Assembly (NCBI GenBank): GCA_012026785.1
Contig: VEOW01000120.1
Location: 1 to 49,117 of the forward strand
DNA from: Chloroflexota bacterium
GTDB lineage: Bacteria; Chloroflexota; Limnocylindria; Limnocylindrales; CSP1-4
Length of the DNA stretch: 49,117 nucleotides
Reading direction: 5' to 3'
Positions 1,643-22,763 of this stretch are shown here, one piece after another; within the stretch, counting starts at the first letter, position 1; the number at the start of each line of letters is the position of its first letter. The position numbers and the translations under genes are program-made. Under the pieces are notes generated by a model. The model was given only the letters and a program-made list of their open reading frames with translations. It ran no database searches and was not told the origin of the DNA.

Positions 1643-4600
1643 GTGAGCCGATGGCTCGCGACCTGGCGCGTCAGCCTGCGCCGGACGCGCGCGGATTGGC
1701 CGATCGTGCTCGCGGCCTGGCTCGTCACGCTCCTCGCCGCCGTCCTGCTCGCCTCCGGTCCGATCTACGCCGACGCGGCGTCGGAGGCCGGCCTTCGTCG
1801 CTCGCTGTTGGACGCGCCGGCTGCGGATCGCAACATCCGCGTCGCGCTGTACGCCGCGACGTCCGAGGCGGAGGCGGCCAACGCGGCCGTCGCAGCCGAG
1901 CTGGCACCGATCGTCGCGCCGGCCAATGGAAGCCTCGTTGGCGAGTGGCGCGGCAGCCAGACCCTCGCGATGCCGGACGTCCCCGGAGTGGCACCTGGCG
2001 ACCAGGCCCTCGTCGGCGCCATCGATGACCCATCGGCCAACCTCAGCCTGGTGAGCGGCGGTTGGCCGCGCGAACGAGCCGACCCCGCAGGCCCCATCGA
2101 GGTCGTCATCGCGGACACCGTCGCGAGGGCCCTTCGACTGGAGGTCGGGGACGAGCTCGGCCTGGTGGCCCACCCGTCGAGCGATCCCGTCGAGGTTCCG
2201 ATCACGGTCGTCGGCATCGTCACGATGGAGCCCCCGGAGCGGTTCTGGTACGGCGACGAGCAGTTGCTCACGGGCGTCTACGACAACGGTCGCTACCGGT
2301 CGTTCGGGCCGTTCCTGATGACGCGGTCCGATCTCCTTCACGAAGCCGAGCTCTCCTCGGTTCAGCTCCGACTGGCGATCGCCCGGGACTACGCGGGCAT
2401 CAGCGCGGACGATGCAGCCCGGCTTCGAAACCGCCTGTCGGGCCTGGCCGAACGGCTGACGGCCATCGTCGGCGGGTCCGTCGGGGTCGCGACGGGCCTC
2501 GGGTCGCTGCTCGACCAGGCGGAGCGCTCGCTGCTCGTCAGCCGCACGGGCGTCCTGCTGCTCATGGCGCAGCTCGGGATCCTCGCCGCATACGCGGTCG
2601 TCCTGACGGCGACCCTGCTCGTGGAGCACCGGCGGGTTGAAACCGCGCTGCTGCGCTCACGGGGCGCGAGCGCCGGCAAGGTCGCCGGGATCACCCTGCT
2701 CGAGGGCCTCCTCGTCGCGGCGCCGTCGGTGGTCGTGGCGCCGTGGTTGGCCGTCGCGGCGCTGGAGCTGCTCAACGTGGCCGGGCCGCTGGCGGACAGC
2801 GGCCTCCAGATCCGGCCTCGGGTAACCGCCGAGAGCCACGTCGCGGCTGGGATCGCCGGGCTTCTCGCGGCCGTCCTGCTGGCGCTGCCGGCCGCCCTGG
2901 CCGCGCGCGCCTTCGCCGTGGAGCACGGCAGCCTGGCCCGCCAGCCGACTCGAACGATCTCCCAGCGGCTGGGCATCGACGTCGCCCTGCTCGCGATCAC
3001 CGGCATCGCCCTGTGGCAGCTGCGGCTGTACGGCGCGCCCCTGACCCGGACCGTGGAGGGCCAGCTGGGGCTCGATCCGTTGCTCGTCGCCGCGCCGGCC
3101 ATCGGCCTCCTCAGCGGCGGGGTCGTCGCCCTGCGACGCTTGCCGCTGCTGGCCGAAGGCCTCGAGCTGGCCGTGTCGCGGGGTCGCGGGCTCGTGGCGG
3201 CCATGGGCGCTCGACAGCTCGCGCGCCGGCCGCTGCGCTACACGCGCTCGGGGCTGCTGTTGATGCTGGCCGTTTCGATGGGCGTCTTCGCCCTGTCGTA
3301 TGGCTCGACCTGGTCGGGCTCGCAGCGGGACCAGGGCACCTACCAGGCCGGGGCCGACGTCCGGGTCGTGCCATCGACCTCACGGACCAGCCTGCCGACG
3401 TGGGCGCTCCCCGACGCGTATGCCCGACTCCCCGGCGTGGAGCAGGTCGTGGCGGTCGCGCGGCTGCCGAAGGGGATCTCCTTCGCGGCCGCGGGTGCCG
3501 CCGCCCTGCTGGCCCTCGACGCGCGGAGCGCGGCAGATGTGATCGCCTTCCGGCCCGACGGAGCGATCCAACCCCTGGCCGACCTGCTGGCGGGGCTCCA
3601 GGCCGGGCGCCCGGATTCGAGCCTCATGACCCTTCCGGACGGGGCTGCCTATCTCCGGGTGGCGCCGGACGTCGAGGCCGTCCGCGGCGATCCATTCGCC
3701 GACCCGGCTTTGGCAGAGGTGCCGATCGAGCCGGTTCCCTTGGGAGACATCCAGGTGCGCGCGAGCGGGCACGTGGTCGATGGCCGCGGCCTCGTGTACC
3801 GGGTCGAATCGGAGCTGCGCTCGGCGGCCGCGACCGACGGCGTCGTCGTCGCGCTGGTGCCGGTCGATCGGAACCGAATCGGGAGCGCGGCGGGTGGCAG
3901 CACCTCGCTCGTCGGCCCGGTCCGCCTCGCCGAGCTCGGTCTGGAGATCTGGCTGCCGCCCTCCACCTTCGGAACGCGGATCGGCATCGCCGAAGCCTGG
4001 GTCTCGCCGGATGCCGGCGGCCCGTGGATCCAGCTGGTCCTCGAGGACGCCGGTCCGTGGCAGGCCAGGATCGGGCGCGACCGCGGCGTGCTCGTCGATG
4101 TTCCAGTCGTTCAGACGTCGGGGACGACGGTGGAGCTCTCCGCGACCGGTCAAGCCGATTTCATGTACAGCTTCGACCCCAACCGACCGACCGGTCGGCT
4201 GAGCGTTCTCCCAGCCTCGATCCTGCCCCTGACCGAGTCGGTTCCGGCGCTCGTCAATCGGGCCTTCGCCGAGGCCATTGACGTTGCGGCAGGCGAGGCC
4301 ATCACGGGAACCGTCCAGGGCGCGCGCCGACGGTTCCGGATCGTGGATGTCGTTGAGCGCTTCCCGACGACCGATCCCCAGCTGCCGCTGCTGATCATCG
4401 ATGAGCCGACGCTCGGGCTCCTGCGCCTCCAGGGCACGGGCGCCGCGAAGCCCTTCTCGGAGCTGTGGCTGGGCACCCGTGCCGGCCAGGAGGAGGCCGT
4501 GGCAGCGGCGGCCCGTGGCGAGCCATTCGAAAGCCGCGACATCGTGAGCGCCGGGGCCCGCGTTCGAACGCTGAGCAACGATCCCGTCGCCATCGGCGTC

Positions 4601-19545: not shown

Positions 19546-20907
19546 GTGACCACCGGGCAGCGAGGTCGTAGCGACCTCATCGAGCTCGAGCCGCCGGTCG
19601 AGAAGGCCTTCCTCGTGGCCGTCGACACGGGCGCCGAGGCGGGCTGGACGGCCGAGGATTCGCTCGCCGAGCTGGCGGCCCCGGCGGTCGACGCCAGGGC
19701 CGAGATCGTCGGCGCCGAGTGGCAGAACCGCCGCCACGTCGACCCGAACTGGTACGTCGGCAAGGGCAAGGCCGAGGAGCTGCTGCGGGCCAAGTCCGAG
19801 ACCGGCTTCGACCTGCTCGTCGCCGACGACGAGCTGTCGCCGGGCCAGCAGCGAGCCCTCGAGGAGCTGGTCAAGACCAAGGTCATCGACCGCAGCCGGC
19901 TGATCCTCGACATCTTCGCCCAGCACGCTCGAACCCACGAGGGCCGCCTCCAGGTCGAGCTCGCCCAGCTCGAGTACCAGCTGCCGCGCCTCACCCGCCT
20001 GTGGACCCACCTGTCTCGAACCCAGGGCGGGATCGGCTCCCGGGGACCGGGCGAGAGCCAGCTGGAGACCGACCGGCGGATCATCCGCGACCGGATCAAG
20101 AAGATGAAGGAGCGGGTCGAGGAGGTTCGGCGGGCGCGGGCCACGGCTGCTCGAGGCCGCGATCGACGGCTGATGCCGACCGTGGGCATCGTCGGCTACA
20201 CGAACTCGGGCAAGTCGACCCTGCTCAACTCGCTCGTCGGGAGCGACGTCGCGCTGGCCGAGGACAAGCTCTTCGCGACGCTCGACCCGACGTCGCGCCA
20301 AGTCCGCCTCGGCGACGGCCAGACTGCGATCGTGACCGACACGGTCGGCTTCATCCACAAGCTGCCGCACCAGCTGGTCGACGCGTTCCGGGCGACCCTC
20401 GAAGAGGTGAATCGCGCCGACGTGCTGCTCGAGGTCGTCGATGCCTCCGATCGCCACGCGCCCGAGCACCGGGCGACCGTGCAGCTGGTCCTCGACGAGC
20501 TTGGCGCGGGTTCCAAGCCCCGGCTCGTCGTCTACAACAAGGTCGATCTCGTGCACCCGGTGGCGGGGGAGGGGAGTGGCGCCGTCGCGCCGGCCGTTGC
20601 CGAGGCCGTGTACGTATCGGCGCTGACGGGGTTCGGCCTGGAGACGCTGCGGTTGCAGCTGTCGGCCCTGCTGGCGTCGCTGTGGGAGGACGTCGACCTG
20701 CACCTGCCGTACACCGCGGGGGAGCTGCTCGCGCGCGTGCGCGAGCGGGGAACGATCGACATCGACTACCGGGAGCGGGACGTCCGGGTCCGGGGGCGGG
20801 TCACGCCGGCCCTGGCCGGCGAGCTGCGGCGGGCGGCCGCGGCGTGGACCGCGGCCCTGCGGAACGGCTCGAACGGGGCGCCCGCCGCCGGCGAAGGCGC
20901 CGGCTAG
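19546..20907 (+). CDS. hflX: GTPase HflX
   Basis: WYVGKGKAEEL, TRTQGGIGSRGPGESQLETDRR, GYTNSGKSTLLN, ATLDPTSR, TDTVGFI, YNKVD. Confidence 0.95.
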   Translation: MTTGQRGRSDLIELEPPVEKAFLVAVDTGAEAGWTAEDSLAELAAPAVDARAEIVGAEWQNRRHVDPNWYVGKGKAEELLRAKSETGFDLLVADDELSPGQQRALEELVKTKVIDRSRLILDIFAQHARTHEGRLQVELAQLEYQLPRLTRLWTHLSRTQGGIGSRGPGESQLETDRRIIRDRIKKMKERVEEVRRARATAARGRDRRLMPTVGIVGYTNSGKSTLLNSLVGSDVALAEDKLFATLDPTSRQVRLGDGQTAIVTDTVGFIHKLPHQLVDAFRATLEEVNRADVLLEVVDASDRHAPEHRATVQLVLDELGAGSKPRLVVYNKVDLVHPVAGEGSGAVAPAVAEAVYVSALTGFGLETLRLQLSALLASLWEDVDLHLPYTAGELLARVRERGTIDIDYRERDVRVRGRVTPALAGELRRAAAAWTAALRNGSNGAPAAGEGAG

Positions 20908-20947: not shown

Positions 20948-21216
20948 CGTGGATGAGCTGTGGATGGACGCACGAAATTCGGCCCTTGAACTTCGAAAGT
21001 CGTGGATAAGTCCCTTCCGCCCCGACGCCCCGGGCCCGTAATCTTCGTCTTGCCCAGAGGGGCCACGAAAACCTAGCGATCTCGACCGGTGCTTGCACCG
21101 GTCTCCATACCAGGAGCTTGCTTCAGGTGTGGTGGGGGTCGTCAAGGAGGCGGCGGTTCCTCTGGGCGTTTCGTTGTGCCCGGAACCCCCTATTCGGCGC
21201 GCCTCGTTTTCGTGAC
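20948..21216 (+). ncRNA. Candidate structured RNA/DNA element, copy 1 (strand tentative)
   Basis: Ordered motifs shared with 21619-21890: three YGTGGA boxes, TTGCCC(A/G)GAGGGGCC, two hairpins with CTTG/CTCG loops (21084-21103, 21109-21128), CAAGGAG..GGCGGTTCCT..GGGCGTTT. Confidence 0.55.
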
Positions 21217-21238
21217 TCGGCGCGCCTCGTTTCGTGAC
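21194..21238. repeat. 22/23-bp tandem direct repeat
   Basis: TCGGCGCGCCTCGTTTTCGTGAC followed by TCGGCGCGCCTCGTTTCGTGAC. Confidence 0.85.
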
Positions 21239-21618
21239 CTCGCGACCCACGGGCCGGCATTGGGCCCGGGATGACCAGCACGTGAGAATCGGGGAGCTCA
21301 TCGGGCCCGTTCGTGGTTGAGCCCGACGGCCCGGTCCGATGCGTTTCGTCTCCAATGTGCACTCCCGGCACGCTAGTCAACGAAACCCGCCGTCGAGCGG
21401 ACTGCAACGGTCCTGCGCCCCGGCTGATTCCGCCCTCCCCGAGGGTGGCTCGGGACAGGTCGGTCGGAGCTTGGGCCGCGGCCGGTCGCAGTTCGGAACG
21501 AACGTGCCTGGGGTGGGCATTGGTGAAGAACCGCGACCGCAGCGACGAGCTGCTCGAGGGTCCGGCGCCGCCAGCTAGCAGGTCACGCCAAGGCGTGCAC
21601 GGCCGCGGCGCGGCGGCC

Positions 21619-21890
21619 TGTGGACGCGCCGTGGATGGGACGGCCGACTTTCGATGCCGAAGTCCGAAACTCGTGGATAAGGGGGGTTCCCCCGGGTTGG
21701 CCACGGGGCTACATTCGGTCTTGCCCGGAGGGGCCCTGAGCAACCAGGAGCGACTCCCGCCGATGCTCGCATCGGCACCCGGTCCCAGTGCTTGCACTGG
21801 GTTCGGGGGATCGCCCCAAGGAGTTCGGCGGTTCCTTCGGGCGTTTTGTCATGCGCCGCGCGAGTCCCGGCGCGGCTCGTTCGATCGAGC
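21619..21890 (+). ncRNA. Candidate structured RNA/DNA element, copy 2 (strand tentative)
   Basis: Same motif order and near-identical spacing as copy 1; hairpins GCCGATG-CTCG-CATCGGC (21759-21776) and CCCAGTG-CTTG-CACTGGG (21784-21801). Confidence 0.55.
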
Positions 21891-21905
21891 TGGGAGGGCA
21901 GGGGG

Positions 21906-22763
21906 TTGACCGCCGAGGTCCGGCCCGAACGGCTCGGCGGCTGGTCGCGGATCCCGCTCTCGGCGCAGCTGCCGGCCATCGCACTCGTTGGCATCCTGGG
22001 CGTCGGTGCCGTCTACCGGCCAGCCGCCCCGGTCGCCTTCGTCGCCGTGCTGTTCCTGTACCTGGTCGTCCGGTGGCAGGGTCGGCGCTCGACGGTCCTC
22101 GCGGCCCTCCTGCCGGTGTCGGCGGTCCTCATGTGGCGCGGGCTGCCGGCCCCGTTGGCCGACCCGGCCGGGCTCGACTGTACGAATTTCCTCTCACCAC
22201 CGGCCGTGTGGCGGTTCATGGCCGCGGCGATCACGATCGTCGTGGTCGGGCTCCTGGTGGCGGACCGTCGTGCGACCCTCCGGGAGCTCGGGCTGCGGCT
22301 CGGCTCGCAACGCGTGGTCCTGGTGTCGCTGGTCGCGCTGGCGGTGGTGGCGCCGCTCGCGGTGTGGTTCGGGAACCTCGTCGGTGGGCTGTTCGGCGAG
22401 GTCTTCTTCGGATCGTTCGCGCTCGACTTCCGACCGGCGGCCCTGGCGCCGGCACTCCTGTTCGCGGCTTCGAACGCGGTCGCCGAGGAGGTGGCCTACC
22501 GGGGCGCGATGCGGGCCTGGCTGGCGCCGACGCTCGGGATCGTGGGCGCCAATCTCGCCCAGGCGATTCTCTTCGGCCTGTCCCACACCGGCGACGACTT
22601 CGTGGGCGCCTCGGCGGCCATCCCGCCGGCCGCGGCGATGGTCCTCGTGGCCTTCGTGGGCGGGGTCATCGTCCGTCGGACCGGCACGCTCCTGCCCGTC
22701 GTCGCGGTCCACCTGGCCGCTGACATCCCGCTCTACTACTACTTGGCCTGCCGCGCGGCCTGA
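21906..22763 (+). CDS. CPBP family intramembrane metalloprotease
   Basis: AEEVAYRGAMRAWL, AILFGLSHTGDD, multiple TM helices; TTG start with GGGAGGG upstream. Confidence 0.82.
   Translation: MTAEVRPERLGGWSRIPLSAQLPAIALVGILGVGAVYRPAAPVAFVAVLFLYLVVRWQGRRSTVLAALLPVSAVLMWRGLPAPLADPAGLDCTNFLSPPAVWRFMAAAITIVVVGLLVADRRATLRELGLRLGSQRVVLVSLVALAVVAPLAVWFGNLVGGLFGEVFFGSFALDFRPAALAPALLFAASNAVAEEVAYRGAMRAWLAPTLGIVGANLAQAILFGLSHTGDDFVGASAAIPPAAAMVLVAFVGGVIVRRTGTLLPVVAVHLAADIPLYYYLACRAA

Follow-up and report, generated by a model that had tools for sequence, protein, structure and literature searches.

What is encoded in the gap between hflX and the CPBP protease gene that follows it in a Chloroflexota bacterium of the order Limnocylindrales? 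The gap lies in a contig of 49,117 nucleotides (VEOW01000120.1, assembly GCA_012026785.1), and this whole stretch is referred to here as the window. The hflX gene (19546-20907, plus strand) carries three HflX-type Pfam domains and is the conserved upstream neighbour at this home of the family described below. The CPBP/Rce1-like protease ORF (21792-22763, plus strand) probably has its true start more 3', and this neighbour is not conserved. An initial annotation claimed that the gap holds no credible protein, which was confirmed by an ORF and domain check, and placed in it two copies of one element. CGTGGATAAG occurs at 21001 and 21672, with TTGCCC(A/G)GAGGGGCC at +49 from each, and the motif order claimed for both copies, including the hairpins, CAAGGAG, and GGCGGTTCCT/GGGCGTTT, was recovered at every offset given. 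A 16-nt direct repeat, TCGGCGCGCCTCGTTT, is also present in two exact copies 3' of copy 1 (21194-21232), and a third copy, 81% alike, is found at 21867 after copy 2.

The element had been described as about 260 nt long. It is real, but the RNA accounts for only about 120-125 nt of it, and the remainder is a predicted promoter. In both copies, base pairing between the opening motif, GCCCRGAGGGGCC, and the final one, GGTTCCTYYGGGC, closes the RNA into a single unit of that length, in which folding of both copies places a further irregular stem bearing two CUYG hairpins. The closing 13-bp terminal stem of each copy had been missed. The structured RNA of copy 1 spans 21050-21172 on the plus strand, both ends being predicted. 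Fold and alignment support its terminal stem, with the 5' arm GCCCAGAGGGGCC at 21052-21064, as well as hairpin A (21084-21103) and hairpin B (21105-21132), both with CUUG loops. The 3' arm GGTTCCTCTGGGC at 21155-21167 is followed by GTTTCGTTGT, a possible weak terminator. Copy 2 spans 21721-21847 on the same strand, again with predicted ends. Its terminal stem is formed by GCCCGGAGGGGCC at 21723-21735 and GGTTCCTTCGGGC at 21830-21842, the latter followed by GTTTTGTCAT, and encloses hairpin A with a CUCG loop (21759-21776) and hairpin B with a CUUG loop (21784-21801), all supported by fold and alignment. The sense strands fold with z scores of -5.6 (copy 1) and -6.5 (copy 2) relative to dinucleotide shuffles, none of 200 shuffles being as good, whereas the antisense strands are less stable (-3.8 and -4.0). 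The terminators of the family RNAs are weak; the sole terminator-like match of the scan covers the 3' end of copy 2, and shuffled sequences yield as many.

Each copy is preceded by a predicted promoter with DnaA-box-like sites at matching distances, a feature that had been overlooked. The plan comprises GTGGATG or GTGGACG at -101 and -90, CGTGGATAAG at -49, GTGGATAA at -48, the -35 and -10 elements, and the RNA start. The -35-like TTCC is separated by 17-18 bp from TAATCT or TACATT, and the RNA is predicted to start about six bases later. In copy 1, two weak plus-strand sites (20949-20966; GTGGATG at 20949 and 20960) are followed by the main site CGTGGATAAG (complement CTTATCCACG) at 21001-21010, 4 bp 5' of the -35 region, and by a predicted promoter at 21015-21044, with a weak -35 TTCCGC (21015-21020), an 18-bp spacer, and the -10 TAATCT (21039-21044). 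The corresponding features of copy 2, on the same strand, are the weak sites at 21620-21637 (GTGGACG at 21620, GTGGATG at 21631), the main site at 21672-21681, and a predicted promoter at 21687-21715, with a weak -35 TTCCCC (21687-21692), a 17-bp spacer, and the -10 TACATT (21710-21715). A generic scan for sigma-70 promoters gave no match at the window copies. The promoter consensus of the family is TTGACC - 17/18 - TANNNT, and the -35 element is poor in the hflX copies of the window's own genus. Only six occurrences of SGTGGATAAS were found in the 3.77-Mb genome to which the window belongs: two at the window promoters, one just after dnaA, one elsewhere, and two in inverted orientation, separated by 33 bp, 5' of a metallophosphoesterase gene. 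Inverted box pairs with this spacing were seen upstream of a metallophosphoesterase gene in genome G000 (L242 2677-2719), and upstream of rsmG and a metallophosphoesterase gene in genome G059 (G059:C7:415256-415296, L365).

The initial annotation regarded the two copies as a duplicated pair. There are indeed two, but they are not merely a local pair; they are members of a class-wide family, whose other genomic homes and clade-wide spread had escaped it. A DNA search of 61 relatives revealed many diverged copies, and the pattern of promoter box plus RNA start was found at dozens of sites in 32 of these genomes, with none in the reversed control. The same pattern was detected in 108 stretches of named GTDB genomes, nearly all Chloroflexota and several labelled Candidatus Limnocylindrales, and a matching 3' end is present in 124 of 133 distinct pattern matches. 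Matches in Desulfobacter, Kaiserbacteria, Halothiobacillaceae, Chlamydiae, and a delta-proteobacterium have no such 3' end and look like chance. In one stretch labelled Acidimicrobiia (L119), two box sites are separated by 670 bp, a spacing very close to that in the window; the label is probably an error and the source a Chloroflexota relative. Across the class Candidatus Limnocylindria, a covariance model of the moaA-type (R1) gave matches in 126 of 177 genomes, representing 38 of 46 genera. The distant families f3 and f4 are among them, f4 genomes often having three copies each, and the genome of the window has two additional copies, on contigs C96 (moaA-type) and C225 (third type); such copy counts depend on incomplete metagenome assemblies. 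A further model (R3), built from 84 non-hflX copies, matches 42 of 400 Chloroflexota genomes, all within Limnocylindria, to which the family is restricted as far as searched. On the window, R3 ranks the two copies first, with E-values of 1.7e-7 for copy 1 and 3e-6 for copy 2 (next match 0.59), and model R2 gives 3e-34 and 1.9e-29, all E-values of these home-made models being rough. Since R3 was built without the window copies and yet places both first, they are tied to the family.

The interior types of the family share both ends, and total length ranges from about 75 to about 280 nt. Lengths step by one or two bases, which disfavours a coding function. The hflX-type (about 77-162 nt) includes the window copies and has CUUG or GCAA hairpins; the interchange of CUUG, CUCG, and GCAA tetraloops fits structural hairpins better than pairing seeds. 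An 86-nt type also has hflX upstream, and a type of about 260-280 nt is located 3' of hflX or, in the streamlined family f2, 3' of moaA. Complex conserved interiors were observed in two such long members (L098 4116-4382 and L017 1240-1525). The moaA-type measures about 77-94 nt, more where extra hairpins are present, and is preceded by moaA and usually followed by a PNP_UDP_1 gene. Its apical motif, GAUNRCAUCAA, marks the moaA and third-locus subgroup and is nearly invariant there; it is absent from the hflX-type copies, including those of the window, which have the CUUG or GCAA hairpins in its place. Conserved homes of the family include the region downstream of hflX, the region downstream of moaA, and a third locus, and the f4 copies have upp, ECF transporter, or FAD monooxygenase genes as neighbours. 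The distant f2 members of the 280-nt type align poorly except at their ends, and the hflX-type and the 280-nt type are linked to the moaA-type mainly by the promoter, the ends, and model matches on the ends. At most moaA-type loci, a strongly conserved hairpin-like leader, GACGTGACCGGCATCCCGGTGTCGGTAC, stands between the RNA and the PNP_UDP_1 gene (L090, about 4200-4240). It shows paired changes (GACCGGC/GTCGGTA versus GATCGGC/GTCGATA), matched no Rfam family, and is possibly an undescribed cis-regulatory element of the MTA-phosphorylase-like gene.

Compensatory change under RNA-level selection had been claimed from the two copies alone, and the larger alignments bear this out, with homologues carrying covarying pairs well beyond the window locus. 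In the hflX-type alignment, 95.4% of cells are paired, both sides change in 11 of 30 pairs, and covariation reaches 0.332; shuffled alignments give 0.162 and slid ones no more than 0.098. In the 84-member alignment, the corresponding values are 95.0%, 11 of 18 pairs, and 0.277 against 0.135 shuffled and at most 0.079 slid, figures that are somewhat favourable because this alignment was fitted to its own model. Its outer stem changes on both sides in 6 of 8 pairs. The covariation controls consist of shuffles and slides, and the shuffle counts ignore the relatedness of the sequences. The closing stem contains tandem, near-invariant G-U pairs, which identify the plus strand as the sense strand; folding and model matches of the window copies are also better on this strand. 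No credible Rfam match was found for the family copies at the gathering score or at E<=10 or 5, the few hits being low scores far under the family thresholds, and no report on non-coding RNA in Limnocylindrales was found in the open-access literature. The RNA family is previously uncatalogued, which agrees with the earlier proposal that the copies represent an undescribed family, either as duplicated non-coding RNA or as an element standing on its own.

Because the box had formed part of the initial search pattern, the test was repeated on matches obtained with the RNA model only. GTGGANAA lies within 90 bp upstream in 39 of 42 third-locus and f4 matches, whereas about 0.2 are expected from shuffled sequence, and its positions in those 39 are nearly always -80/-79 or -49/-48. 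The base that varies is the third of the DnaA box (TTNTCCAC), presumably its least constrained position. Across 14 f4 genomes, a genome-wide search for two boxes about 31 bp apart returned 32 places, the reversed control yielding none. Most of these tandem GTGGANAA pairs (27 of 32) sit 39-41 bp upstream of a family RNA, and four of the other five precede septum/division genes of the DivIC/FtsB type, of which two have a Pfam match, one is a clear relative, and one, truncated, is a likely member. The pairs stand directly 5' of these genes at L385 2088-2126, L386 2006-2044, L387 2165-2203, and L388 (minus strand). Contig C7 of G059 (629 kb) has box clusters at three places only, namely next to dnaA, at the RNA, and at the promoter of rsmG, and single GTGGANAA sites show no overall enrichment there (29 versus 28 in the reversed control). 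Site density is 7-fold after dnaA, on small counts. In several genomes few exact sites are found near dnaA, exact boxes precede one of five f3 copies, and the eight genomes of the window's own genus lack the exact tandem pair, their boxes having a different spacing or deviating at the third base or further on. Of 25 genomes searched for DnaA itself, 23 gave a match.

A stand-alone RNA family is almost certain. Separate transcription units, a common promoter plan, and a conserved RNA fold are evident at the level of sequence, and control of the promoters by DnaA is probable. The best reading as a whole, which is likely, is a clade-specific family of stand-alone, trans-acting structured small RNAs under DnaA control. 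DnaA would bind the box-like sites upstream of the RNA promoters, and would activate rather than block them, as suggested by the main site just upstream of the -35 hexamer and by the paired sites of distant members, which are 31 bp, or about three helical turns, apart. Given these sites, synthesis of the RNA probably follows the cell cycle; it would accompany replication initiation and, in one family or more, expression of a division gene of the DivIC/FtsB type. Neighbours change while the RNA and the boxes stay, which points to action in trans. Such action by protein binding is put forward tentatively; the contact would be made through the closing stem with its tandem G-U pairs or, in the moaA and third-locus copies, through GAUNRCAUCAA, both being better candidates than the tetraloops. 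It is conceivable, although somewhat doubtful, that the whole class runs a dedicated DnaA regulon whose main products are several paralogous structured small RNAs, made alongside a DivIC/FtsB-type division gene, coupling initiation to division or growth via RNA.

Other explanations have to be weighed against this reading. The same RNA family could have promoters in which GTGGANAA is read by a regulator other than DnaA, with no tie to replication. Recognition by DnaA is deduced from the sequence of the boxes, and exact sites are few beside dnaA in several genomes; but the sites match DnaA boxes including the free third base, adjoin dnaA, and mark a division gene, so this alternative is unlikely. 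The DNA itself might be the selected unit, serving like datA or DARS to titrate or reactivate DnaA, with incidental hairpins, given the clustering of DnaA-box-like sites at fixed spacing. The pairs show compensatory changes, however, including G-U pairs that are sensible only in RNA, a fixed -35/-10 lies between boxes and RNA, and like box pairs stand 5' of protein genes too, which makes such a role very improbable. A miniature transposable element ending in the inverted repeats GCCCRRAGG/CCTYYGGGC would account for the inverted ends and the several copies per genome. This origin is extremely improbable: the copies keep their synteny from genus to genus, they are old and diverged, with no near-identical ones, their stems covary behind a fixed promoter, and a scan for viral contigs returned none.

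Two further possibilities concern the role of the RNA. A divergent functional counterpart of 6S RNA, predicted to bind RNA polymerase holoenzyme, would be in keeping with a stand-alone, multi-copy family, several 6S paralogues per genome being known elsewhere, with the rod-like fold of the moaA-type, and with the lack of matches to RF00013 in 41 relatives at E<=10. The scanned copies gave no Rfam 6S match either, an absence that is weak evidence against it; the folds do not have the long rod and large central bubble, forms of 75-90 nt are far shorter than 6S, and the conserved apical motif and two-hairpin branch are foreign to it. A 6S role is accordingly quite unlikely. A cis-acting leader or attenuator of the downstream gene is suggested by the moaA-type copies, which usually have a PNP_UDP_1 gene downstream in the same orientation (both moaA and PNP at 27 of 42). 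The hflX-type copies, in contrast, precede CPBP, PALP, methyltransferase, or nothing recognisable, and the downstream gene of the distant families is often on the opposite strand. A riboswitch or cis-leader requires a consistent same-strand downstream gene, which the family does not have, and this candidate was rejected as highly improbable.

The family RNA under putative DnaA control offers a way into the study of cell-cycle control in a group with almost no cultured members, and raises the testable question of whether DnaA uses RNA regulators as outputs of replication initiation. Class-wide conserved structured RNA families are uncommon, and small RNAs with promoters marked by DnaA boxes are, as far as we know, rare. 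With the covariance models, the family can be annotated in genomic and metagenomic sequences that currently carry no annotation at these loci.

Several known systems resemble the family in part. A link to HEARO/omega-RNA had been suggested, and these are likewise structured intergenic RNAs, but no Rfam match was obtained and the neighbours are not IscB or TnpB genes. Y RNAs share the closing stem, short conserved sequence, and variable interior; they are partners of Ro60/TROVE, however, and this protein was found in none of the 61 genomes (one control genome was positive), so a Y RNA was rejected. 6S RNA (RF00013) is also stand-alone and structured and can exceed one copy, but differs in fold, length, and conserved motif, with no Rfam match to the family. 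The non-coding RNA CcnA of Caulobacter crescentus is likewise linked to the chromosome cycle. It is encoded at the origin, by a gene that contains three weak DnaA boxes and is presumably activated by CtrA (PMC8959179). Compared by description, both are non-coding RNAs with DnaA-box-like sites, but the family RNA has several dispersed copies with DnaA-box-like promoters. In DnaA-regulated promoters such as those of dnaA and nrdAB in E. coli, DnaA boxes are located upstream of the promoter. The arrangement described here is similar, but most of its box pairs belong to small RNA genes.
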